From an uncultured Armatimonadota bacterium (GTDB lineage: Bacteria; Armatimonadota; Fimbriimonadia; Fimbriimonadales; Fimbriimonadaceae): a stretch of 64,000 nt of DNA. The translations under genes were made by a program, and so were the position numbers. Shown in pieces: positions 42,094 to 61,542 of this stretch. Location: contig CAILEM010000067.1 in NCBI GenBank assembly GCA_903833215.1, forward strand, positions 62,001-126,000. The letters are read 5' to 3'. The notes beneath the pieces were generated by a model. The model searched no databases and was not told the origin of the DNA. It worked only from the letters and a program-made list of their open reading frames with translations. Positions within the stretch are counted from its first letter, which is position 1. Each line of letters begins with the position of its first letter.

Positions 42094-43143
42094 CTAGAAG
42101 TTTCCACGTTCCGGACGAAGTGAAATTTGTACATCAACTTTCAACTTTTTTATCGACGCGACTTGGAACGAAGGGGCTTCATCGACTCGGAGGAACTCTG
42201 GCAATTCGATCCAGGTGGCACCAGAACCAAGAACTTTCGGCGCGACGAATAACTCTATGCGATCAACCAGGTCCGCCTGGAGGAATCGCGAATGAGTTAC
42301 CGCTCCACCTTCGATGAGAACTCCCATGATTCCAGCTTTAAAAAGCATCGCGCAAAGATCCTTGGGGTCGAACCCTTGCCCTCCTGCCTTGAGTCCAAGT
42401 TTTCCCTCAATGAGATGAAGTGTCGGGGCAGCCGCATCGAATACTTGTCGGTCTGATGTCAGTTTCCCCTGCGGGTCTAGCACAACCCGCATCGGCTGAT
42501 TCACAACTCCGGGAATTCTCGCCGTAAGGGCCGGATTATCTTTCTCAACGGTATTTCTTCCAACAAGCACTGCCCCACAAAGTGCTCTCAACCGATGAGC
42601 TTGTTTTCGCGCATCGGGTGCCGTTATCCATTGGCTTTCTCCGTTGGGCAGTGCAATACGTCCATCCAACGAAATAGCAGCCTTCAAGGTGACAAAGCAT
42701 CGCTTGAGGCGCATAGCAGTAAGGAATTGCTCGTTCTTTTCGGCGGCCTGAGATTCAAGGCAACCTGATATGACCTCAACTCCATGTTCCTCCAGCCGAG
42801 ACATGCCGCCTTGGGCACGAGGATTGGGGTCAAGGCATGCGATGACAACGCGCTTAATCTTTGCCGCCAGAAGAGCTTCGGAACAGGGAGGAGTACGACC
42901 GTGATGGTTGCAAGGCTCTAGGGTGACGTAGGCAGTTGCACCCGCTGCTTTGGCACCAGCCTGTTGAAGCGCAACAGCTTCGGCATGGGGCCCTCCTGCG
43001 TAGGAGTGGTAGCCTTCTCCCACGATTTCTTGGCCTTGGGCAATAACGCACCCAACGTGGGGGTTTGGCGCAGGATATCCCCCCATCGATAGCCGAATTG
43101 CCCGCCGCATGTGCCGGACATCTAGATCAGTCCAACGATTCAT
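42094..43143 (-). CDS. ribD: bifunctional riboflavin deaminase-reductase
   Basis: The ~350-residue enzyme carries the zinc deaminase (PHVGCVIAQ, AGGPHAEAVAL with the His-Glu site, TLEPCNHHGRTPPCSEALL with two Cys) in the first 150 residues and the NADPH reductase (FVTLKAAISLDGRIALPNGESQWIT, DLCAMLFKAGIMGVLIEGGAVTHSRFL) after it. It performs steps two and three of riboflavin synthesis. ATG 43143 or 43152 are plausible; both lie inside the preceding gene. Other rib genes are absent here and no FMN riboswitch precedes it, since it is within an operon. Confidence 0.94.
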   Translation of the reverse strand: MNRWTDLDVRHMRRAIRLSMGGYPAPNPHVGCVIAQGQEIVGEGYHSYAGGPHAEAVALQQAGAKAAGATAYVTLEPCNHHGRTPPCSEALLAAKIKRVVIACLDPNPRAQGGMSRLEEHGVEVISGCLESQAAEKNEQFLTAMRLKRCFVTLKAAISLDGRIALPNGESQWITAPDARKQAHRLRALCGAVLVGRNTVEKDNPALTARIPGVVNQPMRVVLDPQGKLTSDRQVFDAAAPTLHLIEGKLGLKAGGQGFDPKDLCAMLFKAGIMGVLIEGGAVTHSRFLQADLVDRIELFVAPKVLGSGATWIELPEFLRVDEAPSFQVASIKKLKVDVQISLRPERGNF

Positions 43144-43444
43144 TGCCAACATTTGCCTTCGCTTCTCGGTCCGCAATCGCACCTTGAATGAGGGCTTGCA
43201 TGTTCTCCTGAGCCTGCCTGCGGTATTCCTCTTTGGCGAGGCGGGTCAATTTTATCGCCCCGAGTCCTGCTCCCGTTACGGTCAAAATGAGCAGGGCCGT
43301 AAAGCCCAAGGCTCGCTCACTATAAGCAAGGGCTTGCGCCCGCTTTGCCGGGTGATGGGGTGTAGGCCCGACAATCAGCGGACGAGCGATCATCAGTGAA
43401 ATGGTCGCAAGTAGCATGAGCGTCGTAAACGCCCTCAGCCACAC
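43127..43444 (-). CDS. hypothetical two-pass membrane protein between rpe and ribD
   Basis: The 105-residue product starts at GTG, overlapping the last ten bases of rpe, and its end overlaps ribD. Two hydrophobic segments (AFTTLMLLATISLMIA and GFTALLILTVTGAGLGAI) are separated by a charged loop with a HHPAKRAQALAYSERA phrase; a basic/acidic helical tail (KEEYRRQAQENMQALIQGAIADREA) follows. I recognise no family. The embedding between two metabolic genes by overlap supports that it is translated. An internal ATG at 43420 is an alternative start. Confidence 0.68.
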   Translation of the reverse strand: MWLRAFTTLMLLATISLMIARPLIVGPTPHHPAKRAQALAYSERALGFTALLILTVTGAGLGAIKLTRLAKEEYRRQAQENMQALIQGAIADREAKANVGNESLD

Positions 43445-44079
43445 TGCGACACCATCTCTTTGACCGAATCGGCAAGACAGCTTGCGCGCGCAAAATGACT
43501 CCCTACCACGAAAACGTTTGCTCCCGCAGCTTTTGCAACCGGTAGTGTCCGAGGATCGATTCCACCATCGACTTCTATAAGAAGGTCTGGGCGCAGGTGC
43601 CGCAATCGAGCTACCTTGGCAAGGGTCGACTCAATAAAAGACTGCCCGCCCCAGCCTGGATTTACTGTCATGACCAACGCGATGTCGATGATATCCAGAA
43701 CGGGCTCAATGACTTCTACCGGCGTTCCTGGGTTGATGGCAATTCCTGCTTCCACCCCCATCGCCTTCAGGCTTTGAATCAGGCGATGACTGTGATGAGT
43801 TGCCTCGGCGTGGAAAATAATCCGACCACACCCGGCTTTGGCAAACGCCTCAAACTGCTTTTCTGGAGTTTCTACCATCAGGTGCGCTTCAAAAAGTGCG
43901 TCCACAGTGGGTCTCAAAGCACGCGCATATGCGTCACCAAACGTGATAGGAGGGACGAATTGTCCGTCCATGACGTCCAGGTGAACGATGGTCGCACCGC
44001 TCGCGATCATGGTCGTAACTGACTCACGAAGATCTGTGAGGTCAAAAGATAATATTGAGGGCGCGAGCTCGCATTTCAT
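43435..44079 (-). CDS. rpe: ribulose-phosphate 3-epimerase
   Basis: The 214-residue TIM barrel interconverts ribulose-5-phosphate and xylulose-5-phosphate. Motifs: APSILSFDLTDL, VHLDVMDGQFVPPITFG (metal and catalytic Asp), EAHLMVETP (metal His), NPGTPVE, VMTVNPGWGGQSFI and EVDGGIDPRTL (second catalytic Asp). Its ATG overlaps the stop of the PASTA gene by four bases. The pairing of rpe with a PASTA kinase gene recalls the Gram-positive prkC-rsgA-rpe order. Confidence 0.97.
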   Translation of the reverse strand: MKCELAPSILSFDLTDLRESVTTMIASGATIVHLDVMDGQFVPPITFGDAYARALRPTVDALFEAHLMVETPEKQFEAFAKAGCGRIIFHAEATHHSHRLIQSLKAMGVEAGIAINPGTPVEVIEPVLDIIDIALVMTVNPGWGGQSFIESTLAKVARLRHLRPDLLIEVDGGIDPRTLPVAKAAGANVFVVGSHFARASCLADSVKEMVSQCG

Positions 44080-45893
44080 GGGTTAGGGTTTCCGGTATCG
44101 TTCGCGTCCGGCTGAATCGGCTCATTGGAAGCAGGATCCTCATGAGAGTCCTTCTCCACCGACTTCACTAGCACGCCATCGTAATAGATGTTGAACATAG
44201 ATTTTGGCTGCTTTCCCTTGGCCGTAATATCGAATGTATCTCCGCTGTCGTGCATCTTCTCGTAGATATTTCTCGACCCGTCATCATCCAGCATCAGAAT
44301 CCGAACTTTTGTGCGCTTGGATAGATCTTTGAGGCTGAGATGAAGCGTGTAAAGGAAGCCATCAGAATCGTTCGCTGCCGTGCTTGCCGAATCGCCTCCA
44401 GGTCCGCTACTAATGAAGATATGGATGAGGCTTTGCCTTTGGACGACTGCACGCGCGGAAGGCTCGGACCTAACGACCGCCCCGACGGGTAATTTGGGGT
44501 CTGGCACCTTTGTAATCGTCTCAGACAGCGTGAGATTGAGCGTCCCCAGAAGCTCCTTCGCCTTGTCGACAGTGAGTCCATGCAACTCAGGTACTTTTAC
44601 GTTCTTCGTGCCTGAGCTTACGACCACTGAAACCTGTCCACCCTCTCGAACTTTCTGGCCCGGTTCTGGATCCACTTCAAGGATACTGTCTTGCTCAATC
44701 TTGTCGTTTGACTCACGTCGAGAGATTCGGAGGCTGAGCTTACTGTCTTTCAAAACCAGTTTGGCCTCAGCAATCGTACGATTCTTGATGTTCGGAACCG
44801 TGACCCATACCGTTCTGCGAAGATTCTGATAGAACCACATTCCGAGCACGGACACGAACAGGGTCAGACCCATCGTAAAGAGGAGCATCAGCCAAATGGG
44901 AACATCCCGTTCTTTCTTTTGCTTACCTTTGGCCTTAGGTTCTGCTGTTCCACGGATTGCAGACATTCGTGGTGCCACGGGCTGAGGACGCCCTCCAGGG
45001 CCCCTGCCTGAACTTGCCTGCGCAGGAGGCAGCGCTTCTGGGCGAAGCGGCCAACTTAGTTGTCTGCCAAACCGAAGCGCATCCTGCAACAACCGGAGGT
45101 CAGCGATCATGTCGGAGGCCGAGACATATCGCTGAGCAGGATCCTTGGACATCGCCTTCTTCACGATTTCATCTAAGACCACAGGAACGGCCAAACTCAT
45201 TGTGCGAAGGCTTGGTGTAGCAGCCGTCGAATGCTGCATAGCCATCGCCAAAGATGTTTCTGCGATGTAGGGAGACCTGCCTGAAATCAATTCGTACAGG
45301 AGTATTCCCACTGCGTAGACGTCGGAACTAGTGCTTGGCATCGCGCCTGCGCTCACTTCGGGAGCAAGGTAAGGGGCCATACCCGGCAGCACGATCACGC
45401 CGGCCGTCGGACTCGCAGAGTACGCCTCCCAGATCCCAGTTAATTCCAGCCTCACATCCCCATCTGCCATGACAGCCATGTTCTGAGGATTGAGGTCACC
45501 GTGGACTAAGCCAGAGCGATGTACGGCATCCAGTGCATGCAGAATGCTTATGGCCGTACCGACGGAAACAGGAATGGAGAACGGAGCTAGCTTTCGGATA
45601 CGATCTGCAAGGCTGGGCCCCCTGGTTAGGTCACCCAAAACGAACGACGTACCGTCTTCTGACTCGACACTGGTCAGCCGTTCAATGTTCGCGCTTTGAA
45701 CCACACTGTATTTTTGAACCGTGTTCGCAAGACGGTCGATGAAGCTGGGTTCATGTGAAAAGGGCGGTTTGATGATGCGGATGGACAGGTCTCGACCTTG
45801 AATTCGGTCTCGCGCCGCAAAAGTTGAGAAAATTGGCCCTTCGTGAAGTAGCCCAACCAACTCGTATCGAGCCTTGAGAATTTTGCCAATCAA
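44076..45893 (-). CDS. PASTA-domain receptor with degenerate (pseudo)kinase domain
   Basis: The 605-residue protein has a eukaryotic-type kinase-like domain (1-275), a Gly/Pro/Lys-rich linker, one membrane span (about 333-355) and two PASTA repeats (about 362-500), then an extracytoplasmic tail. The fold elements HGDLNPQN (131-138), APE (177-179) and SDVYAVGILLYEL are kept. However, the Gly-rich loop is LLHEGPIFSTF, the VAIK lysine is Arg39 (SIRII), the alpha-C Glu is not seen and DFG is L-T-G (151-153). ATP-Mg catalysis is therefore unlikely. PASTA domains bind muropeptides or lipid II, so a wall-sensing scaffold is a reasonable inference. Four-base overlaps join it to both neighbours. Confidence 0.9.
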   Translation of the reverse strand: MIGKILKARYELVGLLHEGPIFSTFAARDRIQGRDLSIRIIKPPFSHEPSFIDRLANTVQKYSVVQSANIERLTSVESEDGTSFVLGDLTRGPSLADRIRKLAPFSIPVSVGTAISILHALDAVHRSGLVHGDLNPQNMAVMADGDVRLELTGIWEAYSASPTAGVIVLPGMAPYLAPEVSAGAMPSTSSDVYAVGILLYELISGRSPYIAETSLAMAMQHSTAATPSLRTMSLAVPVVLDEIVKKAMSKDPAQRYVSASDMIADLRLLQDALRFGRQLSWPLRPEALPPAQASSGRGPGGRPQPVAPRMSAIRGTAEPKAKGKQKKERDVPIWLMLLFTMGLTLFVSVLGMWFYQNLRRTVWVTVPNIKNRTIAEAKLVLKDSKLSLRISRRESNDKIEQDSILEVDPEPGQKVREGGQVSVVVSSGTKNVKVPELHGLTVDKAKELLGTLNLTLSETITKVPDPKLPVGAVVRSEPSARAVVQRQSLIHIFISSGPGGDSASTAANDSDGFLYTLHLSLKDLSKRTKVRILMLDDDGSRNIYEKMHDSGDTFDITAKGKQPKSMFNIYYDGVLVKSVEKDSHEDPASNEPIQPDANDTGNPNP

Positions 45894-46099
45894 CTTTCAT
45901 CCGCCTCTCTGTCCCTCAAGAAGGCAAAGACAATACATAAGCCGAGCAACACGAGCGCGAAATACTGAATTGTTGGCGTATCTACCTGGGTCGCATATTG
46001 AGACGCATTACCGCTTAGAGCCGCGTTCTGACTGGCTGCGTATCCCAAACCTAGGAATGCGACAACGACAGCAGACAATAGAGTTCGCAGCTTATTCAT
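45890..46099 (-). CDS. 69-residue small membrane protein in the aro-PASTA operon
   Basis: The product has an N-terminal hydrophobic segment (LLSAVVVAFLGLGYAAS), a polar Ser/Asn/Gln-rich loop, and a second span (IQYFALVLLGLCIVFAFL) ending in RDREADES. It overlaps the aroB stop and the pseudokinase start by four bases each (ATGA), which is strong evidence of translation. A function with the PASTA receptor in the membrane is a reasonable guess, nothing more. No family recognised. Confidence 0.72.
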   Translation of the reverse strand: MNKLRTLLSAVVVAFLGLGYAASQNAALSGNASQYATQVDTPTIQYFALVLLGLCIVFAFLRDREADES

Positions 46100-47130
46100 G
46101 ATTCACGCATCGCAGCCAAGACCGTTGCTTCGGGCACCGACTCCACAAGTTTACATCGCCCAATATCGGATAGTAAGCTGAAGGCCAAGTTGCCTCCCGC
46201 TGCCTTCTTATCACCGTACATCGCGCTCAAAAGAGCACGCTCGCTCTTGAGTATCGAGTGTGTAGTTGGCAACCCCTGATTGGCTAGATACTGACTGACT
46301 TCTTGCGTGACACCCTTGCGGGTCATACCAAGCATCTCGCCGAGTTTGGCTTCAACGACCATCCCAATGCTGATAGCTTCGCCATGGAGAATGTTCCCAT
46401 AGCCAACGGCATATTCAACCGCATGCCCAACGGTGTGTCCAAAATTCAGGATCGCTCTTAGGCCAAGAGTTTCGAATTCATCCCCTTGAACAACTTCAGC
46501 TTTAAGTGCAATACACCGCCGCACAACTTCGCCTAGTGCGGGGTGCTCGACGCCCCAGCCTTCCGCCGCCAAGGGCTCCGTAAGGCCTGCATCCATGATA
46601 AAGGCATATTTCCAGACCTCGGCCATACCGTTCACAAATTGATTTACGGGAAGTGTCCTTAGGACCGCAACATCGATGGAGACTCCTGACGGTGGATAGA
46701 AAGCTCCCGCTAAATTCTTCCCTTCGACGAGATCCACTCCAACCTTTCCACCAACAGAGGAGTCAACCTGGGCCAAGAGGCTTGTAGGAATTTGGTAAAA
46801 CGGGACGCCTCGCATGTAGGTTGCGGCAACAAAGCCTGCCAAATCTCCAACCACACCGCCACCCAGTGCACAAATCATTGTCTTGCGTGATGCCTTGGTC
46901 TTTGCAAGCCAAGAGAGCAAGCTACCGTAGCTTTTCAGCGACTTGCTCTGCTCTCCCGGGTCAATCATGACAACTGGAGCCTTGGCTTCAAGTAGAGGGC
47001 CAAAGTGCTGGACCACGTTGGTATCCGTAATAATCCGCAGATCGGATGGCAACCGCTCGATCGCAGAATCGATTGACTCAAAGCGGACTTCGTAGCTACC
47101 GTATCTGTGACTGATCTGTATCGATTTCAT
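46096..47130 (-). CDS. aroB: 3-dehydroquinate synthase
   Basis: The ~344-residue NAD- and Zn-dependent enzyme makes 3-dehydroquinate, step two of the shikimate pathway. Key blocks: VMIDPGEQSKSLKSYGSLL, ICALGGGVVGDLAGFVAATYMRGVPFYQIPTSLLAQVDSSVGGKVGVDL, KNLAGAFYPP and AILNFGHTVGHAVE (zinc His). It overlaps aroK by 35 bases with ATG 47130, or 50 with ATG 47145; neither start has a strong Shine-Dalgarno sequence. Confidence 0.96.
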   Translation of the reverse strand: MKSIQISHRYGSYEVRFESIDSAIERLPSDLRIITDTNVVQHFGPLLEAKAPVVMIDPGEQSKSLKSYGSLLSWLAKTKASRKTMICALGGGVVGDLAGFVAATYMRGVPFYQIPTSLLAQVDSSVGGKVGVDLVEGKNLAGAFYPPSGVSIDVAVLRTLPVNQFVNGMAEVWKYAFIMDAGLTEPLAAEGWGVEHPALGEVVRRCIALKAEVVQGDEFETLGLRAILNFGHTVGHAVEYAVGYGNILHGEAISIGMVVEAKLGEMLGMTRKGVTQEVSQYLANQGLPTTHSILKSERALLSAMYGDKKAAGGNLAFSLLSDIGRCKLVESVPEATVLAAMRES

Positions 47131-47635
47131 ACTGTCTGATGGCATCTAGCACTCGGGTCATTCCACAACTTAGGTCGACATCGTCCACCGGTACAACGAC
47201 ATCAGCCCTGCGATAAAGTTCAAGTCGACTCTCAAGAATTGCTGCGGTTCTTTCCTCCCAATCGTCAACCTGAAGGAGTGGTCGCTTCTTCTTACTTACG
47301 GCTAGACGCTGAATGAGAGTTTCAATCTCTGCGTCAAGGAAGATCGTGCAACCTAAGCGTTTGAATTCCACCCAGTTCTCTTCACGCAAAACAATTCCGC
47401 CGCCGGTGGAAACGACACTAGCAGACGGCTCAATGCTCCGGATGACACTTGTCTCATGGTCTCGGAATGCCGCTTCCCCGTAGATTTGAAAAATCTGACT
47501 GATTGGACGACCCAGGCGCTGCTGTAGGAGGAGGTCCGTGTCAATAAACGTCCTCTGTGTATGTTCGGCAAGAGCCCTGCCGATGGAGGACTTACCTGCC
47601 CCCATCATTCCAATCAAAATCCAGCAACGATCCAT
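47096..47635 (-). CDS. aroK: shikimate kinase
   Basis: The 179-residue P-loop kinase phosphorylates shikimate. It starts CWILIGMMGAGKSSIGRALAEHTQRTFIDTDLLLQQRLG, containing the Walker A GMMGAGKSS, and has FRDHETSVIR, VVSTGGGIVL and a lid region (KKKRPLL). The ATG lies only six bases after a perfect 13-bp hairpin that follows pilQ, and there is no Shine-Dalgarno between them. aroKB following pilMNOPQ is the same order as in many proteobacteria. Confidence 0.96.
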   Translation of the reverse strand: MDRCWILIGMMGAGKSSIGRALAEHTQRTFIDTDLLLQQRLGRPISQIFQIYGEAAFRDHETSVIRSIEPSASVVSTGGGIVLREENWVEFKRLGCTIFLDAEIETLIQRLAVSKKKRPLLQVDDWEERTAAILESRLELYRRADVVVPVDDVDLSCGMTRVLDAIRQYEIDTDQSQIR

Positions 47636-47641
47636 AAAGAA

Positions 47642-47673
47642 GGGGTGGCAGGATCATTTTATCCTGCCACCCC
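47642..47673 (-). terminator. perfect hairpin between pilQ and aroK
   Basis: A 13-bp perfect stem GGGGTGGCAGGAT/ATCCTGCCACCCC with loop AAAATG (minus strand) is followed by TTCTTT and then directly the aroK ATG. It should terminate or attenuate the pil transcript. The incomplete T tract and its contact with the aroK start suggest partial readthrough or translational control. Confidence 0.8.
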
Positions 47674-47696
47674 ACCATTGTGATTCAATCTAGAGG

Positions 47697-49340
47697 CTAC
47701 GGTCCGCCTTGAGATCCTGCCGTATCTTCATCAACGATACTTGGAGTCACAAAGATCAAGAGTTCGCTGTTACCAACGGTCTTGGTTGCCTGTCGGAAGA
47801 ACTGACCGATAATCGGAAGTTCTGCGAGGACAGGAACCTTGTTCTGAGTATCGCTCTCGCTCTTGTTGGTCATACCACCAAGAACGATCGTCTCGTTGTT
47901 CTTGACACGAGCAACGACTGAGATCGACTGCTGCGACAAGTTTGGATACTGCTCGCCGTTAGGTCCTTGAGAGAAACCAACGAAGTTCGAGATCGTCGGC
48001 GTGAGATACACCGTGATTGTGTTGTCGTCGTTAATTCGAGGAGCAACAGCCAAGAACGTATATGCCGTGAGCGGATATGGTTGCGGAGTCGTGATGACCA
48101 CGCCGTTCGAGACTGTCGTCAAGTTGTAGAAAATCCACGAAGTGATGAGGCTTCCAACCGATGCTGGCTGGTTGTTGAGAGTCCTTACGATAGGAGCTGC
48201 AACGACCTTACCGCCACCTTCACTGAGTGAGACACGAAGTCTTGAAGTGATATTGCCTGTGGCATAGTTCAAGAAGACCGGGTCACCCGTGTTAACAAAG
48301 GTTCCTGGAGTTGTACCAGCGAACAAGGCACCTCTCTGGTAAAGAAATTCTGTACCGAAGTTCTTCGAAAGAGTGTCCGTTGTGGTGATGAACTCAACCT
48401 TGATCTCAACCTGGCGAGGAGCCACGTCGAAGAGGTTGATGTAGGTCTGAAGCTGATTGATATCGTCTTCATTTCCTCGCACGACCAAGCTGTTGTCAGT
48501 TGGATCGTATGAGATGAAGTCGATGCTGTCGCCGACTAGGCCCTGGCCACCAACGAGGGAAGTATTACCCTGACCACCGGCGCCACCCTGACCGCCGCCT
48601 CGACCACCCTGACCGCCGCCTTGGTTTCCACCAAGACCGCCACCTTGACCGCCACCAAAACCACCACCGAGCTGTGCTGCGCGCTCGCTACCGGGAAGTT
48701 TGATATCGCCACCAGACTCAGCGCCAGTCAAAGGAGTTTGTACCTGAGGAGACGCTGTGATAGGAGTGTAAGTCGTATTTGTATTTTGGATGGCGAGAGG
48801 GTTCACGTTCTTGCCGATCATTCGTGATGCATCTTCCGGACCAACGAGTTGAGCAAATCGCTTCAACTCACCGAGTCCACGTGTGACATCGAATGGGATG
48901 CTGAACATGATCGTGTCATACACATCTCGAGCTCCAGCCTTCAAGACTTTGAGCCTTCGAAGGAGCTTTGGAACCTTTGTTGGAATGACTGAAGGCGGTG
49001 CCTCAACCACGGGCTTGTTGTGGCTGATGATATACACCCCGTTCTCATCGCGCTTGAAATAAGCCCCTGCCGCCTGGCAGATGTATCGAACCGCATCCTC
49101 TGGACTCACTGCGTCCAGTTTCAAAGTGACCCGCTGATAAGGCTCGGAACTCGGCTGAACGACGAACTGGATCCCTGTTCTTTGGAACAGGGCGTTCGTC
49201 GCCGCCATCATATCCGCATCCTTAAGGTTCAGGTCGACCCTGACGTCAGACGCTTGCTGCGCCATGGCAACCGAAAGCGGCGCCACAACAGCACCCGCAA
49301 GCACCGCCACAAGTCCCAATTTTGCCCAGCTCAATCGCAT
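47697..49340 (-). CDS. pilQ: type IV pilus secretin PilQ with glycine-rich insert
   Basis: About 547 residues with a signal peptide (LGLVAVLAGAVVAPLSVAMAQQ). An N0/STN-like domain (VRVDLNLKDADMMAATNALFQRTGIQFVVQ) and an N1-like unit lead to a Gly/Gln-rich linker (about 220-265: GGGFGGGQGGGLGGNQGG...), then the last N domain (DFISYDPTDNSLVVRGNEDDINQLQTYINLFD) and the secretin barrel (KVEFITTTDTLSKNFGTEF; SRLRVSLSEGGGKVVAAPIVRTLNNQPA; KVPVLAELPIIGQFFR). It forms the outer-membrane gate for pili or related export. ATG 49340 has GAGG six bases upstream and a clean signal peptide; 49352 and 49364 are alternatives. Confidence 0.93.
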   Translation of the reverse strand: MRLSWAKLGLVAVLAGAVVAPLSVAMAQQASDVRVDLNLKDADMMAATNALFQRTGIQFVVQPSSEPYQRVTLKLDAVSPEDAVRYICQAAGAYFKRDENGVYIISHNKPVVEAPPSVIPTKVPKLLRRLKVLKAGARDVYDTIMFSIPFDVTRGLGELKRFAQLVGPEDASRMIGKNVNPLAIQNTNTTYTPITASPQVQTPLTGAESGGDIKLPGSERAAQLGGGFGGGQGGGLGGNQGGGQGGRGGGQGGAGGQGNTSLVGGQGLVGDSIDFISYDPTDNSLVVRGNEDDINQLQTYINLFDVAPRQVEIKVEFITTTDTLSKNFGTEFLYQRGALFAGTTPGTFVNTGDPVFLNYATGNITSRLRVSLSEGGGKVVAAPIVRTLNNQPASVGSLITSWIFYNLTTVSNGVVITTPQPYPLTAYTFLAVAPRINDDNTITVYLTPTISNFVGFSQGPNGEQYPNLSQQSISVVARVKNNETIVLGGMTNKSESDTQNKVPVLAELPIIGQFFRQATKTVGNSELLIFVTPSIVDEDTAGSQGGP

Positions 49341-49378
49341 TTCTATCCTCATAAACCCTCTCATTTCCTTAGCGATTA

Positions 49379-50086
49379 TTAGCCGCCGAAGCCGCCACGT
49401 CCGCCACCGCCGAAACCACCGCCGCCCATGCCGCCGCCGCCGAAGCCGCCGCCACCCATGCCGCCGCCACCCATGCCGCCGCCCATGCCGCCGCCCATGC
49501 CGCCGCCCATACCGCCGCCCATGCCGCCGCCCATACCACCGCCCATGCCGCCGCCCATACCACCTTGTCCGCCGCCAGACATACCTTGCTTAGACAAGGT
49601 GCTGAGTTCGGGTGGGATTTGGTAAGACTGATTTCCAGCCTTTGCGCCAAGCATTGCTGCGATGAACTGTGGATCCGCCGATCGGATCTTTATTCTTCGA
49701 ATGATTGTCGTTTTAACACTTGATGGAGCCTCGGAACTGCCCGCAGTTGGGGCTGTTGTCTCCGCTCTCTTCACGATCTCATAAACACCAGCCTCAACGC
49801 GATATGTTGCATCGACTTGACGCAGCACATTTTGGAGAGCCGTTTCGAACGTGACGTTCTTCAGGCTAACGGTTACCGTTCCCTGAACTTCGGGTGCGAT
49901 TGAGTAAGAAACGTTTACGTTCTTAAACAACGCGCGCAAGGCTTCACGAACATCCGCTTGTTCCAACTCCAGCGAAGGGATCGTCTTCTGAGAGATATCC
50001 TCCTGGGCTGAGGCAAGCGAAGGCATTGCACCGACTAGAAATAAGCCAAATGCAACACTCATGGCGAGCTTCATTGTTGTTTTCAT
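49379..50086 (-). CDS. exported secretin N0-domain protein with Gly-Met repeat tail
   Basis: The 235-residue protein has a signal peptide (LAMSVAFGLFLVGAMPSLASAQ), one secretin/STN N-domain (IPSLELEQADVREALRALFKNVNVSYSIAPEVQGTVTVSLKNVTFETALQNVLRQVDATYRVE, about 38-105), a short strand region (KTTIIRRIKIRSADPQFIAAMLGA), and a C-terminal tail of about 60 residues made of Gly-Met-Gly-Gly and Gly-Phe-Gly units. It has no beta-barrel domain, so it is not itself a secretin. It may dock on the PilQ ring. Strong GGAGG seven bases before ATG. It lies 38 bases before pilQ. Confidence 0.85.
   Translation of the reverse strand: MKTTMKLAMSVAFGLFLVGAMPSLASAQEDISQKTIPSLELEQADVREALRALFKNVNVSYSIAPEVQGTVTVSLKNVTFETALQNVLRQVDATYRVEAGVYEIVKRAETTAPTAGSSEAPSSVKTTIIRRIKIRSADPQFIAAMLGAKAGNQSYQIPPELSTLSKQGMSGGGQGGMGGGMGGGMGGGMGGGMGGGMGGGMGGGMGGGGMGGGGFGGGGMGGGGFGGGGRGGFGG
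49466..49561 (-). repeat. 12-bp coding tandem repeat (Gly-Met-Gly-Gly x8)
   Basis: Eight consecutive 12-base units (plus-strand form close to CCGCCGCCCATG, with CAT/ACC variation) have exact period 12, the CCCAT core recurring at 49470, 49482 and so on to 49554. Each encodes G-M-G-G. As the unit is a multiple of three, slippage would change tail length without frameshift. Confidence 0.9.
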
Positions 50087-50136
50087 TTGATAACCTCCAA
50101 ACCTTCAGAAGTTCGAAGTCCTCCAGTGTTTTGTCG

Positions 50137-50142
50137 ATTGTA
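50137..50142 (-). promoter_or_regulatory. possible internal -10 element before the secretin N0-domain gene
   Basis: TACAAT on the minus strand lies in the 115-base gap between the PilP-like gene and the secretin N0-domain gene, 51 bases upstream of its ATG. The -35 is weak. It could give extra transcription of the two outer-membrane components. Confidence 0.25.
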
Positions 50143-50201
50143 CATCTTTACGAATTAATGCGCTTATGCTCTAACGTCTTCCGCAAATTTCCTGGGTAAT
50201 C

Positions 50202-50900
50202 CTACATACCAAAGCCAGGAGTCATTTGCTTCTTACGATTTCCACCAGCACCTTGTGGAGGCATTCCTCCGGTAGGTGCCCCGCCTGTATTTCCAGAGAA
50301 ACCAGGAGGAGGGCTTTCAAGTCTTACTGTGATATTGTGCGGACCAACTGGACCATCTCGGTGAAGAACAGCCTTATCTTCATCAATCGATGCAACCGTC
50401 CATTCCGTCTTGGGAACTTTCATTCCTGGTCGAATAATGGTCGCTGCCTGGCCCGTACCCATATCGATGATTGCCAGTACGGAGTCGCCAACAATGATTC
50501 CGGCTAAGCGTCGGTAAGGTTGTGGTTCGTCTACAGGAATTTGTTTGGTCTCATCTGGAGGCAACTCGTACTGAGTCGTAAACCCACCCATAGTTCCCAT
50601 AACGCGCTCTACGTTTTGCTGGCGATCGTATGCAGCTTCTTCTCGAGTTAGCTCGAAAGGATCACCGCGATGGCCAAACCTTGAAGAGGATGCAACAAGC
50701 GTCTTATACGTCTTGTCATCCTTGGATTGCTCAACCGGCAAGCCTGCCGGCACGTTTGGTGGCGTGTAGCTAACGGGTGCCGTCGATGTTGACGTCATTT
50801 CCGGTGATGGAGCAGCAGGCGTGCTACTGCTTCCACCACCACACCCAATCGCAGCTGCGATAACTGCGCTTAGGGCCAGAACTCGAATAGGCACATTCAT
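50202..50900 (-). CDS. PilP-like pilus assembly lipoprotein
   Basis: The 232-residue product begins MNVPIRVLALSAVIAAAIGC with a lipobox (AIGC, Cys20), then a Ser/Thr/Pro-rich region. The C-terminal half has the PilP-like beta-sandwich pattern: PYRRLAGIIVGDSVLAIIDMGTGQAATIIRPGMKVPKTEWTVASIDEDKAVL. In other bacteria PilP links the PilN-PilO complex to the secretin. Its last 25 residues are Gly/Pro/Met-rich, ending RKKQMTPGFGM. Position in the operon supports PilP. A frame extension to 50966 (GTG) overlaps the pilO stop but lacks lipoprotein logic. Confidence 0.75.
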   Translation of the reverse strand: MNVPIRVLALSAVIAAAIGCGGGSSSTPAAPSPEMTSTSTAPVSYTPPNVPAGLPVEQSKDDKTYKTLVASSSRFGHRGDPFELTREEAAYDRQQNVERVMGTMGGFTTQYELPPDETKQIPVDEPQPYRRLAGIIVGDSVLAIIDMGTGQAATIIRPGMKVPKTEWTVASIDEDKAVLHRDGPVGPHNITVRLESPPPGFSGNTGGAPTGGMPPQGAGGNRKKQMTPGFGM

Positions 50901-50965
50901 TCTTAAATCACAATCCTTCTTTCTATTAGCAACTTCGATTTGGTCAGGCAACTTATTCCAGATCA

Positions 50966-51781
50966 CTACATTCCCTGCATGCTTGGCATCATGTTCTTCT
51001 TGCCGCCGCCTGGAGGTCCAGTAATTCCACCCGGGCCACCAAAGCTTGGCATACCACCAGGTCCACCAGGTCCACCGGCTGCAGATCCACCACCAGCGCC
51101 TTCATTCACATTCGGAGCAATCTTCTTCGTGCGAATAAAGCCTACGATAGACAGATTGTAGGTTCCTGTCAAATTAGGAGACGTTCCATCAATTCTTAGC
51201 CCATCGGTTACAGCGAGATACCGTGGCATCGATTTGTATGCGCGAACGTTGTCCAGAATCTGCTTGTAAGTTCCCTGAACGGTGATCGTTCCGAAGTCAA
51301 GCATAACGACTGGAAACTTCAAAGGTCCGTAGTTGTAGAACGATGCAAGAATCTGATTCACTGGAAGGTTCGCGTCAATACCTTGAACCATAGGCGCATT
51401 CAAGACTTTGACTCCACCCTTCTTCACCTGAGCGTTGACCGCGCGCTGAATGCTGTTGCGGAATTTTGGAGTATCGACGCTCAAATGCCAAGGGTCAACG
51501 GATAGATCAATACCTCCATCCTTCAAATCCATCGGCGGAGTCCGCGTTTCAATAATGGCTCTCCAGATATCGGCTTTCTTATTAACCATATCCTTAGCCT
51601 TGGCAACGCGCTTCTTAGCCTTATCCATCTTCTGGGCTTCGGCATCGTTGTCTTCCTTGCTCTTATTGAGCAAAGCGACTTCTTTCGTGTTCGGAAGGTA
51701 GTGGATAAACAAGCCCCAGCTAACTGCGACCACGCAGACCATTATTCCGATCATTAAAATTGCAAATTTTCCAAGTTTCAT
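50966..51781 (-). CDS. pilO: type IV pilus inner-membrane alignment protein PilO-like
   Basis: The 271-residue bitopic protein has one N-terminal membrane span (AILMIGIMVCVVAVSWGLFI), a coiled coil (about 36-75, KEDNDAEAQKMDKAKKRVAKAKDMVNKKAD), and a ferredoxin-like domain (LDFGTITVQGTYKQILDNVRAYKSMPRYLAVTDGLRIDG). The last ~40 residues are Gly/Pro-rich and end KKNMMPSMQGM. PilO pairs with PilN and helps join PilM to the secretin. It lies 12 bases after pilN. Confidence 0.85.
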   Translation of the reverse strand: MKLGKFAILMIGIMVCVVAVSWGLFIHYLPNTKEVALLNKSKEDNDAEAQKMDKAKKRVAKAKDMVNKKADIWRAIIETRTPPMDLKDGGIDLSVDPWHLSVDTPKFRNSIQRAVNAQVKKGGVKVLNAPMVQGIDANLPVNQILASFYNYGPLKFPVVMLDFGTITVQGTYKQILDNVRAYKSMPRYLAVTDGLRIDGTSPNLTGTYNLSIVGFIRTKKIAPNVNEGAGGGSAAGGPGGPGGMPSFGGPGGITGPPGGGKKNMMPSMQGM

Positions 51782-51793
51782 GTTCAGAATCTC

Positions 51794-52720
51794 CTAGTCA
51801 GACGAATCGTCGGCACCCTTCTTGCCTTTCTTTGTAGCTGCTGGAGGAGTGTCTCCACCACCCATTGCACTTGCTCCCGGAGGAGGTCCGCCTACGCTAC
51901 CTGGTCCACCTGGACCACCCATTGGAGCGGCAGGCGCAGCGGCCGCACCACTTGCTCCACTGGTAATAGTTTGACGAGGATCTGGGGTCTGCAAGTTCTT
52001 GGTCACCGACATCGTAACAGTTACGAGCGACGAAGTCGGCATTGCCTCACGTGTACTGTCTGTCCCAGTTCCAAAGTTGCCTTCACTGTTATAGCCCTGT
52101 TGTTGGACGGAAGCCTGGAAATAGGCAAGTCGTTCCAATTTATCGTCAGGAATCGGCCCCTGATCTGGACGCCGGGGTTTCCCTTCCGTATCCGTGGCAT
52201 TGATATTCGGGACGATTTCGTCGCGACTCACAAAACCGGATCGTGAAATGGAAACAAGGCCTGGATACCGAGAGAAGGCCAGCATCAGGTTGGCGTACTG
52301 CTCGTAGGTATCAATCGTTCCGATCAAAGTAATTGTCGCAGAAGTTGCCCCACCCGCTGAAGCGGAGAGGCTATTAATCCTGAAGAACGATGGGATGTAC
52401 GGCTTGATGCCCTCATAGAGGTCTGGATAGACGTCGTTGTGCTTGATCATATCCTGCGCCAAGGTGGCGTCTCGGATCAGCGCAACTGACTTCACATCAT
52501 TCATGATCGTGTCAGCTTCAGTTGACTTGGTGTATGCCTCCAGTGCAGGTCCAGTGGAAGCCTGCTGATCGGACCGAGCTTGGTCCAATGCCTTCGTGGA
52601 AGATACATTCAAATATCCACCCAATACCAAGCCAGCCACGGCGATAAGGGCAGAAAAGAGACCGGCAGACTTAGCCTGCGCCCCTTTCGAAACTGTTGTA
52701 GGCAGTAGGTTTAGCTTCAT
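51794..52720 (-). CDS. pilN: type IV pilus inner-membrane alignment protein PilN-like
   Basis: The 308-residue protein begins MKLNLLP, the short cytoplasmic motif by which PilN binds PilM, followed by one membrane span (LFSALIAVAGLVLGGYL), a helical periplasmic stretch and a ferredoxin-like fold (FFRINSLSASAGGATSATITLIGTIDTYEQYANLMLAFSRYPGLV). The C-terminal ~60 residues are Ala/Gly/Pro-rich (MGGPGGPGSVGGPPPGASAMGGG) and end in Lys/Asp/Ser. It directly follows pilM. Confidence 0.87.
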   Translation of the reverse strand: MKLNLLPTTVSKGAQAKSAGLFSALIAVAGLVLGGYLNVSSTKALDQARSDQQASTGPALEAYTKSTEADTIMNDVKSVALIRDATLAQDMIKHNDVYPDLYEGIKPYIPSFFRINSLSASAGGATSATITLIGTIDTYEQYANLMLAFSRYPGLVSISRSGFVSRDEIVPNINATDTEGKPRRPDQGPIPDDKLERLAYFQASVQQQGYNSEGNFGTGTDSTREAMPTSSLVTVTMSVTKNLQTPDPRQTITSGASGAAAAPAAPMGGPGGPGSVGGPPPGASAMGGGDTPPAATKKGKKGADDSSD

Positions 52721-52726
52721 GCGTTT

Positions 52727-53998
52727 TCAGTCGAAGAAGATATGGAGGCCGTTTCCAACGGCTACCGCGAATGCTTGCTTATGCTCCTCAACAAATGCTG
52801 CAGGAACTTTCTTAGCGTTAACATTGAGACGGCGAAGCGGGTCGTAAGCGTCACACTCAATGCCTAACGATTTAGACAAAAATGGAGCCAAGCCACCTAG
52901 CTTAGCGCCCCCACCGCACAGTTCAACCGCGTCGATTTCTCCACCTCGACTTCGGTAGTAGTCGATCGAACGTCGCACTTCGGATACGAACTCATCAAGA
53001 ATTGGAGCGATCGCGTTGTAGTACTTGTCTGTCGGCTGTTCTGCGACAGGCTCTGGCGCATGTACGATCTCAGATTGAGGGGCTGGGTCATCAAATGGCG
53101 AGGCCATCGGATCCATGCCAAAGTCTGTAGTTCCCGCATCAGAGGCTGGTGCCACATAAGGAAGAGGATCATCGGCAAATGGATTGTATGCCGCGAATCC
53201 AGCAGTCACGCCTGAATCGCCGAAAGGATCGGCAGGAGCGGCTGTTCCTGCCCACTCTGGAATACTCACGTGCTCTTGCTTGAGAGACTCAGCATCGTCA
53301 ACACTCATGGCGAACGCATCTGCGATTGCCTTGGTGAAGAGCTCGCCTCCAACAGGTACTTGTCGGGGCATCAGCAATCGATCGCCGTGGTAGATATTGA
53401 TGCAGGTTGTCTTGTGCCCGATATCTACGACGCATACCGTCTTATCGCCAAGTAAATCGTTATAGCTACGATGGATTGACCGAGCAAGGCTCAAAGGCTC
53501 AACATCGATCGCACTCGTACTTCGACCCGCTTTCTTGACGCACGCCATGATGGTGTCAATCGCGCTTTGAGGCGAAATGGCCATTACTACGTCCATATTG
53601 GGCGAGTTGGGATCATCTCCACCAAGTGGGCGGAAATCGCTGACGATCGTGCTCTCAGCAAAAGGGATGTTCCGGTTGATTTCCCACTGCATATGCTCCT
53701 TGAGCTCAGCAGGATTCATCTTAGGCACTTCCAGCGTTCGCACGAGGACGCTTGCCTGGCCAGCGATTGAAACAACAACCTGACCGACGGAGGCGCCACT
53801 CTGTGAAAGCACTTGCTTCAGCGCAGAACCCACGGCGTCACTGTTATAGACGCCAGTGTGGTCAACCGCTCCTTCAGGCGTATCAATGATGCCGAGTGCA
53901 GTCACTACCGGCTCTTTGCCTTGGGAACGGATTTCACAAATTTTAATCGATTGACTACCGATATCTACGCCGAGCACACTACTTAGCTTTTTGGCCAT
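52727..53998 (-). CDS. pilM: type IV pilus cytoplasmic ATPase-fold protein PilM with disordered insert
   Basis: The 423-residue actin-like protein has VLGVDIGSQSIKICEI (phosphate 1 loop) near the N-terminus, VVVSIAGQASVLVRTLEVP, ELKEHMQWEINRNIPF (typical PilM), TVCVVDIGHKTTCINIY (phosphate 2) and VELCGGGAKLGGLAPFLS (adenosine motif). An insert of about 80 residues (near 225-305) is acidic and Pro-rich and includes DPFGDSG, NPFADDP and SPFDDPA. PilM binds the PilN N-terminus. It is first in the pil operon; an extension upstream to 54037 lacks support. Confidence 0.93.
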   Translation of the reverse strand: MAKKLSSVLGVDIGSQSIKICEIRSQGKEPVVTALGIIDTPEGAVDHTGVYNSDAVGSALKQVLSQSGASVGQVVVSIAGQASVLVRTLEVPKMNPAELKEHMQWEINRNIPFAESTIVSDFRPLGGDDPNSPNMDVVMAISPQSAIDTIMACVKKAGRSTSAIDVEPLSLARSIHRSYNDLLGDKTVCVVDIGHKTTCINIYHGDRLLMPRQVPVGGELFTKAIADAFAMSVDDAESLKQEHVSIPEWAGTAAPADPFGDSGVTAGFAAYNPFADDPLPYVAPASDAGTTDFGMDPMASPFDDPAPQSEIVHAPEPVAEQPTDKYYNAIAPILDEFVSEVRRSIDYYRSRGGEIDAVELCGGGAKLGGLAPFLSKSLGIECDAYDPLRRLNVNAKKVPAAFVEEHKQAFAVAVGNGLHIFFD

Positions 53999-54035
53999 TA
54001 GGTAACTATCCCTTCCCTTCCCTTCCTGGGACCCC

Positions 54036-54065
54036 ATCTTATCATTGGGCCATGGGTGCTGTCAA
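54036..54065 (-). promoter_or_regulatory. sigma-70-like promoter of the pil operon
   Basis: On the minus strand TTGACA (54060-54065) is followed after 18 bases by TAAGAT (54036-54041), 37 bases upstream of the pilM ATG. The leader contains three tandem GGGAA units, giving a GGGA ribosome-binding site. This is the best promoter match seen in the window. Confidence 0.65.
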
Positions 54066-54373: not shown

Positions 54374-57300
54374 TTACTGCGAGACCGCAAACGATGGCCA
54401 TTGTGGAGATATCGTCTCGAAGAAGATATCAGGGACACCTGCCCGCGTACTCGTCCAGAAGAGCCATGTCAAAGGCGGTCTCCTTAACGAATTCGCCGCA
54501 AGGGAGAATGGGTCTAGGAACGCCGTTAGATCGGATTCATTGACCGCGTTATCAATGAGGATCTGCTGTTCACTTGTTTCACGAATCAGCGAGACTGTGG
54601 GCTGATAGGGCAGCACATAGTTGAAGGTTGTTCCATCCTCTCGTAGAGCCGTGTAAGACACCGATACAGCGTTGTCTTCATCTGCCCTCGTGAAGTAAAT
54701 GCGACCGTTGGCAGGATCTACTTGATAGGCAGAAGTATTTCGCTTCTGGCCGATCACGTTGATTGAAGGCACACCGTTGTTATTCACCGCCATTCGGTAG
54801 GGCAACTGAACGCCATAGCGAAGGGACGTGTAGTATGGCCTAGGAGCCAGTCCGGCGCCGCCTGCCGCCCGATTGTAAGTGAACAGATACCTGTCACTTT
54901 GGATCTGGCTTGCATTGCCTGCCTGAGTGCCGTTAGCTGTGAACCACGAGAAGGGGTTGCTAATCAATCGCTGGTCATAAAGGCCCGTTGCCTTTGCATA
55001 TCCAGATCCACCCGAAGCAGAAACTCTCAGGAATCTTGGACTATAAGTCGCCAAGATCTGAGCACTGGCATTGGGTACGCCCGCGGTAAAGCGAACGGTG
55101 CCTAGTGCAGTGTCGATATAGACCTTGCCACCCAACTTCGAGTCGTAGCTGATAAGTCCTGTCTCGCGATCATAGACGGCCGTTCCCGCAACCAGAAGCG
55201 AAGTGGTAACACCGTTAAGGTTCTGAGCTACTTGAATCGTCGCAGTTGGATCCCACTGAATGCCCAACGAACGATACAAGCCTGGTTGGCTGCCCGCGAC
55301 GAGCGCTTCTCCAACCTGCTGCGAGAGATTGATGAACACGTTTCCATCGCTGGCGGCGTTATCAATCGAAACTCCCTTATCATCGACCACGCCGAAGTTG
55401 CTTGAATCAACCTTCATCCGACCGAGGAACACTTCGGGATTCGACCGTCCCTGCTGCTGCGCCGTAAAGGTCATTTCGGCTACGTAATCGCCATTGACCA
55501 AGAAGTAGTTCACCCCATCTGGCTTAAGGGCACCCAGACCAGCATATTGCCGACCTGCGACCGACACGCCAGTAACCGACGAGAATCCTGGGCCAAACGG
55601 TAAGGCTACCGATGGGCCAAAGTTGCTGCCATTAAAGTAGGAGTAGTAAACCGTCGACTGTCCACTTGCAGTGCCCGGATAGAACACCATCGCTCCGACC
55701 GGGGTCTGCACAACGCTTGGCTTACCCTTGGTCACGAGTGGATCATTGAACATTGTCACCGGTTGTGGTGGCGTTGTCAGGCCGGTCGAGGACGGGGAGA
55801 CCTGAGCCATCATGATGAACGACTCGCCCAATCTTCCTGATGATGTCGATTTCTGTGCATCACCGACGAACGCCATGTAAGTCGCGACGAACTTCTGCGA
55901 GGGATTGAATGGGTTGACCTGTCCCATCTGAGGGAAGGTCGGATTGGTGTACTGAACCGTTCCTGGAACAACCGCTTCTCCGGACTGGCTTCCGAACAAC
56001 GCGTCTGGCGACTGTGACGGATAGGCCGCAGCAGCTTGCTTGAACCACTGAGAGCTAGAGGCTGGCGTGAAGTTGTTAAGATCGGCCAACGGAGACAACG
56101 GATCTGGAGTTCCGGTAATTCCGAAACTGTTGAACGTTGAAGCGTTATTGACCGACGCCATGTAGATCATGAAGTTGCCGAGTTGGCTCGACGATGTCGG
56201 CTGAGCTGGATTCCAACTTGGCCTATCCGAAGCCCAAGCGACATCGAGTCCGCCGAAGGCATCTCGAATCATTGCAGGTTGCTTGTTGCTATAGGCATAT
56301 GGATTGGCCGAACTTGCGGAAGCCGCGTTATCGACCATCGGTGCCGTGAACGGCGTGAAGGACGTTGTGAGCCGAGATTCGCGAACATTGAAGTTCAATG
56401 TGAACGTCGGATCGCTGAAGGTCTCAGGCGCGTTGTTGTACGTCTGCCACCAATCGTTGTTCTGAGAGAACCAAGGGACACCCAATCCAAGGGTCGTACC
56501 CTTTTCGATGACGCGCATCGTCTGGCTGTACGCACCTGCTGGCATTCCGAGTGGAACTGATACAGCCACACGAGGATTAACCGGCGGATACTTCAACGAT
56601 TGAGATCCGATCGAACCTACCAGCGTTTGGTTTGCCACGTCTGGAAGCGGAATTGACTGTCCGAACGGAGTGAAATACCCCGTCGTTCCCAGATATGGAT
56701 TGGCTCGTCGAATCGCATTGGCTGTCGCTTGCGTTGGCGCGGTATCGGAAACACGAGGCTTCTGAACAATAACCTCGTTGTAACCCGTACCAGCCTTGGC
56801 CTCAGGGGCGAAGATTGTATCGATGTCACTCCACACGTCGAGCGAGCCGTCTAACCAGCCCAACGGATCATTCGTTGTCGAGAAGATCGACCATGGTTGA
56901 GTGCCTCCAATTGCGTAGACCTTTGCGAGGCGAACGTTCAATAGGTTGACGTTGCCTTCGTTGAGAACCGTAAACGGCTGGAACAACGACTTGTAGTAGC
57001 CATCCCACGGTTGGAAGATCGAAAACGCGTTGTTCGAATTGGAGTTGAGCGAATAGCCTTGAGTACCGGAAGCCGACCCAGGTACAAGTGGGTTGTAACC
57101 CGTTCCTTGTCCTTGCGCCCCAAGGTTGACACTTGGCGTACTTACGGTGATCTTCTCATCGACATCGACCGAAGTCATCAAGTTGAATCCTCGATAGGCT
57201 TCAGCGGGCGATGTGTCGAGCAGCCCGTTAATATTCGAGTCAACAAATGCTCGAGCGCGACCTAGATACCCTTGGCTGAGCGGAATCGCTGCCGGACTTG

Positions 57301-61519: not shown

Positions 61520-61542
61520 AACTTTCACCAAATGGTTTTCCT

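Follow-up and report, generated by a model that had tools for sequence, protein, structure and literature searches.

A PASTA-linked receptor at the aroB-rpe locus of Armatimonadota, probably a non-catalytic pseudokinase

Results

The receptor gene and its domains

The window analyzed here is a 64,000-nt stretch of DNA from an uncultured member of the Armatimonadota. All coordinates are positions in this window, and residue numbers refer to the 605-aa receptor. The receptor and its neighbors are laid out as follows.

43127..43444, minus strand: 105-aa protein with no Pfam match, conserved after rpe in most loci of the family
43435..44079, minus strand: rpe, the conserved downstream neighbor, with a 4-nt overlap with the receptor gene (synteny)
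44076..45893, minus strand: gene of a PASTA receptor and putative pseudokinase, 605 aa (ORF, Pfam, and StkP alignment)
44148..44357, minus strand: C-terminal beta domain, approximately residues 513-582 (ectodomain model; fold matches weak)
44409..44600, minus strand: PASTA repeat 2 (Pfam and genome PASTA search)
44613..44804, minus strand: PASTA repeat 1 (Pfam and genome PASTA search)
44829..44900, minus strand: single membrane span, approximately residues 332-355 (read by eye)
45069..45893, minus strand: cytoplasmic (pseudo)kinase domain, residues 1-275 (Pfam, AF2 model, and PknA/Stk1/PknB fold)
45890..46099, minus strand: 69-aa two-span membrane protein, with a 4-nt overlap with the receptor gene; likely partner (ORF list, synteny, and family count)
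46096..47145, minus strand: aroB, the conserved upstream neighbor (synteny)

The receptor ORF begins at a TTG start codon at 45893 and ends at a stop codon at 44078-44076. It had been predicted to encode a PASTA receptor, and Pfam bears this out with a Pkinase domain at residues 24-256 (69 bits, cut-off 31.7) and two PASTA domains. The full architecture comprises a kinase fold, a juxtamembrane segment, one membrane span, two PASTA repeats, and a C-terminal beta domain. The single span, read from the sequence only, and the two PASTA domains stand as predicted, while the C-terminal beta domain had been missed.

The kinase domain is modeled by AF2 as a complete two-lobed kinase fold with a mean pLDDT of 94.7. 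Its best structural matches are PknA (Z 34.6, rmsd 1.7 across 267 residues), Stk1, and PknB. The nearest solved structures by sequence are StkP, Stk1, PknA, and PknB. The ectodomain model (pLDDT 83, pTM 0.46) consists of two PASTA units and the C-terminal beta domain, and among PDB entries it is most similar to the extracellular part of Staphylococcus aureus PrkC; the beta domain finds only weak matches among known folds. The receptor thus has the kinase fold, membrane span, and extracytoplasmic PASTA repeats of a PASTA Ser/Thr kinase, yet it scores 297 bits against the NCBIfam PASTA kinase equivalog NF033483, for which the cut-off is 450.

The small membrane protein encoded just upstream had been proposed as a partner of the receptor, and this idea gains weight. 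A small membrane ORF lies directly upstream of the receptor gene in 70 of the 73 loci of the window's family, and 65 of these share the same 4-nt overlap; the conserved positions of the small protein include Gly19-Tyr20, Ser23, Gly30, and Asp40. The overlap fits translational coupling and a joint function of the two proteins, and the 69-aa protein is a likely partner on these grounds. Its match to DctQ (E 0.023) is below the cut-off and was set aside as chance.

Degradation of the catalytic site

The motifs discussed below were located by alignment to Streptococcus pneumoniae StkP and by conservation across the family.

45777..45779, minus strand: Arg39, in place of the VAIK Lys (StkP alignment and motif table; Arg in 69/73 of the family)
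45720..45722, minus strand: Thr58, in place of the alpha-C Glu (StkP alignment and motif table; Glu in 0/73)
45480..45503, minus strand: catalytic loop H131-G132-D133-L-N135-P-Q-N138, HRDxKxxN degraded to HGDxNxxN (StkP alignment and motif table)
45435..45443, minus strand: L151-T152-G153, in place of DFG (StkP alignment and motif table; Asp in 0/73)
45429..45431, minus strand: Trp155 (DFG+2), 99% conserved in the clade and Ala in the HRD paralogues
45066..45083, minus strand: DALRFG juxtamembrane motif, residues 271-276 (column conservation and motif count)
44952..44978, minus strand: VAPRMSAIR juxtamembrane motif, residues 306-314 (count of VAPxM-like motifs)

StkP VAVK aligns with LSIR39 of the receptor, which places Arg39 at the position of the VAIK Lys. 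StkP HRDLKPQN aligns with HGDLNPQN (residues 131-138), so that the HRD Arg is replaced by Gly and the catalytic-loop Lys by Asn135. The HxD Asp and the DFG position lie 18 residues apart in both proteins, a stretch that aligns without gaps, and the Gly-rich loop reads LHEGPIFSTF in the receptor versus IGRGGMADVY in StkP. The original prediction had described the Arg39 and LTG substitutions, the degraded Gly-rich loop, and the retention of Asp133, Asn138, APE, and the alpha-F Asp, all of which the alignment confirms; Arg255 is kept as well. Its list of losses was incomplete, as it lacked the alpha-C Glu and both substitutions in the catalytic loop. What is left of the catalytic set of PASTA Ser/Thr kinases (VAIK Lys, alpha-C Glu, HRD-K-N, and DFG Asp) is the HxD Asp and the Asn.

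The prediction would have failed had Lys42 and another Asp occupied the catalytic positions, and the alignment places neither there. Lys42 is not the catalytic Lys, because it aligns with an Arg of StkP (VAVKVL-R), and no other conserved acid was found near the DFG position among columns conserved at 85%. Neither sequencing error nor chance explains the losses, since 69 of 73 family members have Arg at residue 39 and none has Asp at residue 151. The protein therefore combines a kinase fold with the loss of ATP- and metal-binding catalytic residues, as general bacterial pseudokinases do.

Phylogenetic distribution and stepwise loss

A search of 151 genomes recovered a match to the receptor at an E value of 1e-20 or better in 145 of them and in 115 of 116 good-quality genomes, with an HRD paralogue as the best match in a few distant genomes. 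We scored the motif states of 125 sequences. Within the window's family (n = 73), the same losses are fixed across the orthologues, whose alignment had been proposed as a check on the prediction: Arg39 is present in 69, and the DFG Asp and alpha-C Glu in none. Other positions persist, including the His-Gly pair (73), the HxD Asp (66), Asn138 (51), the APE Glu (71), the alpha-F Asp (72), and Arg255 (73). The sister family (n = 5) has Arg at the VAIK Lys position and keeps DFG, while another family of the order (n = 9) keeps the VAIK Lys and has Gly at the position of the DFG Asp. Among 26 loci from other families, the Lys (23) and the DFG Asp (22) are mostly kept and the alpha-C Glu is found in 7. 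The HRD group, nine paralogues and StkP, is canonical at all motifs.

The minimum number of changes on the tree is five for the VAIK Lys, four for the DFG Asp, six for the alpha-C Glu, and one for the HRD Arg. These counts indicate that the kinase lost its catalytic residues in steps, some of them in parallel, along an orthologous line, and by the same motif states the catalytic loss is old. The tree is a quick one, built with the motif columns removed, and many of its inner forks are weak; the split between the HGD and HRD groups has an SH-aLRT value of 99. Searching with a nine-row alignment also retrieved named records of the same family from Fimbriimonas and other Armatimonadota.

Features outside the catalytic set are conserved as well. 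Phe275-Gly276 of the DALRFG motif is 100% conserved in the clade, and [RK]FG[RK] occurs in 71 of the 73 family members versus none of the nine HRD paralogues. A VAPxM-like motif precedes the membrane span in 51 of the 73, compared with 15% in shuffles.

Synteny of the locus

Most HGD genes across the phylum lie in the order pilQ-aroK-aroB-X-rpe-ribD, where X is the receptor locus, wherever contigs allow the order to be read. Neighbors of the aroB-X-rpe type are absent from all nine HRD paralogue loci. Synteny and the tree thus define one orthologous line that is separate from the canonical HRD PASTA paralogues.

In the window, pilMNOPQ-aroK-aroB-X-rpe (42094-54037) parallels the Escherichia coli K-12 block hofMNOPQ-aroK-aroB-damX-dam-rpe, and because the gene block is the same, the pseudokinase occupies the position of DamX. 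DamX is a single-pass, peptidoglycan-binding (SPOR) division protein; it has no kinase fold and no PASTA repeats, and we claim no homology. In Bacillus subtilis, rpe adjoins the prpC-prkC-cpgA operon (PMC6449344), a further likeness of the receptor to PrkC. By analogy, these two parallels suggest an envelope role for the receptor.

Two further observations concern this region. The secretin gene region (47697-50086) comprises two ORFs, one for a 235-aa protein whose long tail is rich in Gly and Met and one for a 555-aa secretin, and a 2390-aa ORF at 54374-61546 probably encodes a secreted repeat protein.

Selection on the kinase domain

We estimated dN/dS for the kinase domain in 12 close pairs with finite dS, leaving out more distant pairs, which were saturated. 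The ratios range from 0.008 to 0.151, with 11 below 0.1; one pair has a dS above 2, which makes its ratio rough. These values indicate that the kinase domain is under purifying selection, again as in bacterial pseudokinases, and with most ratios below 0.1 we rejected a pseudogene. In the clade to which the window belongs, conservation is higher in the kinase domain than in the ectodomain: the window and clade member L012 share 83% identity in the former and 56% in the latter.

Other kinases, phosphatases, and PASTA proteins

The whole genome contains two PASTA repeats, both in the receptor, and exactly two are found in nearly all genomes of the order. The receptor is the sole PASTA protein here and in nearly all of its relatives in the order. 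The original prediction had called for a search for a second, active PASTA kinase and for a PP2C phosphatase. No second PASTA kinase was found in the whole genome, which does encode further, canonical-looking Hanks kinases (four strong matches), two PP2C matches away from the receptor locus, and ten FHA matches. On one contig of this genome (G000, contig C29, locus L134), a kinase, a PP2C, and two FHA genes adjoin as a canonical phospho-signaling cluster.

In several relatives, a single strong kinase is found besides the receptor. Locus L136 (3247-5070) encodes a canonical HRD/DFG kinase without PASTA repeats, and most relatives searched have a strong kinase match with a similar profile span; the L136 type may be the single Hanks kinase that the class shares.

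The draft genomes G047 and G065, two related assemblies from a single genus (1.5 Mb, 97% complete), differ in that the receptor is their only Pkinase match, and no PP2C profile match was found in either, while each has three transpeptidase (PBP) matches. If profile detection is complete, the role of the receptor in these two genomes is therefore independent of Hanks phosphorylation. Their receptors (L114 and L118) have decayed further, from HGD to HGH or HGC, and keep an open frame, the PASTA repeats, the Trp, and the FGK juxtamembrane motif. Both also carry long low-complexity C-terminal tails. This state may be a special case of genome reduction.

Discussion

We propose that the protein is a non-catalytic PASTA-type pseudokinase receptor and scaffold, and we place the probability of this reading at roughly two in three. 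The comparison strongly supports the original prediction of a non-catalytic PASTA receptor: catalytic residues are lost family-wide, and the gene is orthologous throughout, is under purifying selection, encodes an intact AF2 fold and the sole PASTA protein, and persists in the two genomes without another Pkinase or PP2C match. The ancestor would have been a PrkC/StkP-like kinase whose fold, probably catalytically inactive by its residues, no longer transfers phosphate and has become a protein-interaction module. By analogy with known PASTA receptors, the PASTA repeats and the C-terminal beta domain would make contact, beyond the inner membrane, with peptidoglycan or its precursors, and this contact would place or cluster the receptor; the muropeptide of the original prediction is a putative ligand. 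On the cytoplasmic side, envelope or division factors would then be bound by the kinase fold and the DALRFG and VAPxMSAIR motifs, and the two-span protein of the overlapping gene would serve as a membrane partner. StkP inactivated by K42M regains function when its juxtamembrane domain carries phosphomimetic changes (PMC12077195), and a PASTA receptor can therefore act without catalysis of its own.

Retention of Asp133 in 66/73 and Asn138 in 51/73 family members counts against this reading, in that it could reflect residual nucleotide binding or chemistry. The fold might thus act as a nucleotide switch or a non-kinase enzyme, binding ATP or carrying out another transfer, as SelO and SidJ do, by means of Asp133. 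The invariant His-Gly pair is in keeping with such a role. Some pseudokinases do bind ATP or perform other chemistry, and DYD pseudokinases, which also have Lys replaced by Arg and lack the alpha-C Glu, have been modeled with ATP (PMC12599244). We nonetheless consider this improbable, as the DFG position has no conserved acid, the Gly-rich loop is degraded, the alpha-C Glu is absent, and the protein persists in seven of 73 members without Asp133. An atypical but active protein kinase would also explain Asp133 and the complete fold, and basal orthologues in other families (L106, L115, and L098) keep the Lys, alpha-C Glu, and DFG; it is very improbable here, where the Lys, alpha-C Glu, catalytic-loop Lys, and DFG Asp have disappeared together and the score is below the equivalog cut-off (297 versus 450 bits).

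An inactive receptor could instead be phosphorylated by a canonical Hanks kinase and read by FHA proteins, in the manner of MviN or the StkP juxtamembrane domain. Canonical HRD/DFG kinases occur in the genome, one of them in the C29 cluster with a PP2C and two FHA genes, and the single further strong kinase of several relatives would suit this arrangement. We regard it as unlikely, because G047 and G065 keep the receptor without any other Pkinase or PP2C match and the juxtamembrane motifs contain no strictly conserved Ser or Thr (VAPRMSA is VAPTMGA elsewhere). The gradual loss of catalytic motifs along the tree might also be read as a gene decaying toward loss. This is barely credible: nearly all genomes keep the frame open and the synteny intact, most dN/dS ratios lie below 0.1 where relaxed selection would bring them near 1, and in the clade of the window the kinase domain diverges less than the ectodomain does.

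The proposed pseudokinase receptor resembles PrkC, StkP, Stk1, and PknB (NF033483), its best sequence and fold matches, in its kinase-juxtamembrane-TM-PASTA order. It differs from them in lacking the VAIK Lys, alpha-C Glu, catalytic-loop Lys, and DFG Asp, in falling below the equivalog cut-off, and in having two PASTA repeats with a beta domain and no adjoining PP2C. The MviN (MurJ) pseudokinase, ActPs3, is likewise a membrane-linked bacterial pseudokinase in peptidoglycan control (PMC12599244), but it is part of the actinobacterial MurJ-type MviN protein, with VALT, no HxD, and no PASTA, whereas the receptor has HGD and a PASTA architecture. The DYD and GLW families are also membrane associated and are not described as PASTA linked (PMC12599244). 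DYD, described from actinobacteria and firmicutes, has that motif where the receptor has LTG, and GLW replaces HRD where the receptor has HGD. EssB/YukC is similarly a single-pass bacterial pseudokinase and scaffold, but it is part of type VII secretion, with another ectodomain and context. Among the bacterial Ser/Thr kinases covered by a 2025 review, five families consist wholly of pseudokinases and two are mixed, and none is described with PASTA or from this phylum (PMC12599244). The receptor gene is not discussed in the passages retrieved from the genome paper on Fimbriimonas ginsengisoli, the sequenced isolate of the class (PMC4072686). No PASTA-linked pseudokinase family is described in the literature we found, though an earlier mention is possible, for example in the Kwon 2019 pseudokinase survey; as far as the literature searched shows, this PASTA-linked, class-wide, syntenic family is new.

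We extend this reading only tentatively to the class as a whole, with its chances a little short of even: that the only PASTA receptor of the class signals without phosphorylation, that a kinase was turned stepwise into a scaffold at a fixed locus, and that a cell without any Ser/Thr kinase can still sense its wall through PASTA. In annotation and in general treatment, PASTA receptors count as kinases. One orthologue fixed between aroB and rpe provides a natural series, from near-complete catalytic sites in other families of the phylum to sites where nearly all is lost, which separates PASTA sensing and scaffolding from phosphorylation and makes the separation testable where nature has already removed the chemistry. 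The class retains a receptor with a probably dead kinase, lacking the parts needed for activity, as its only such sensor, which suggests that PASTA sensors can work without the reaction taken to define them.
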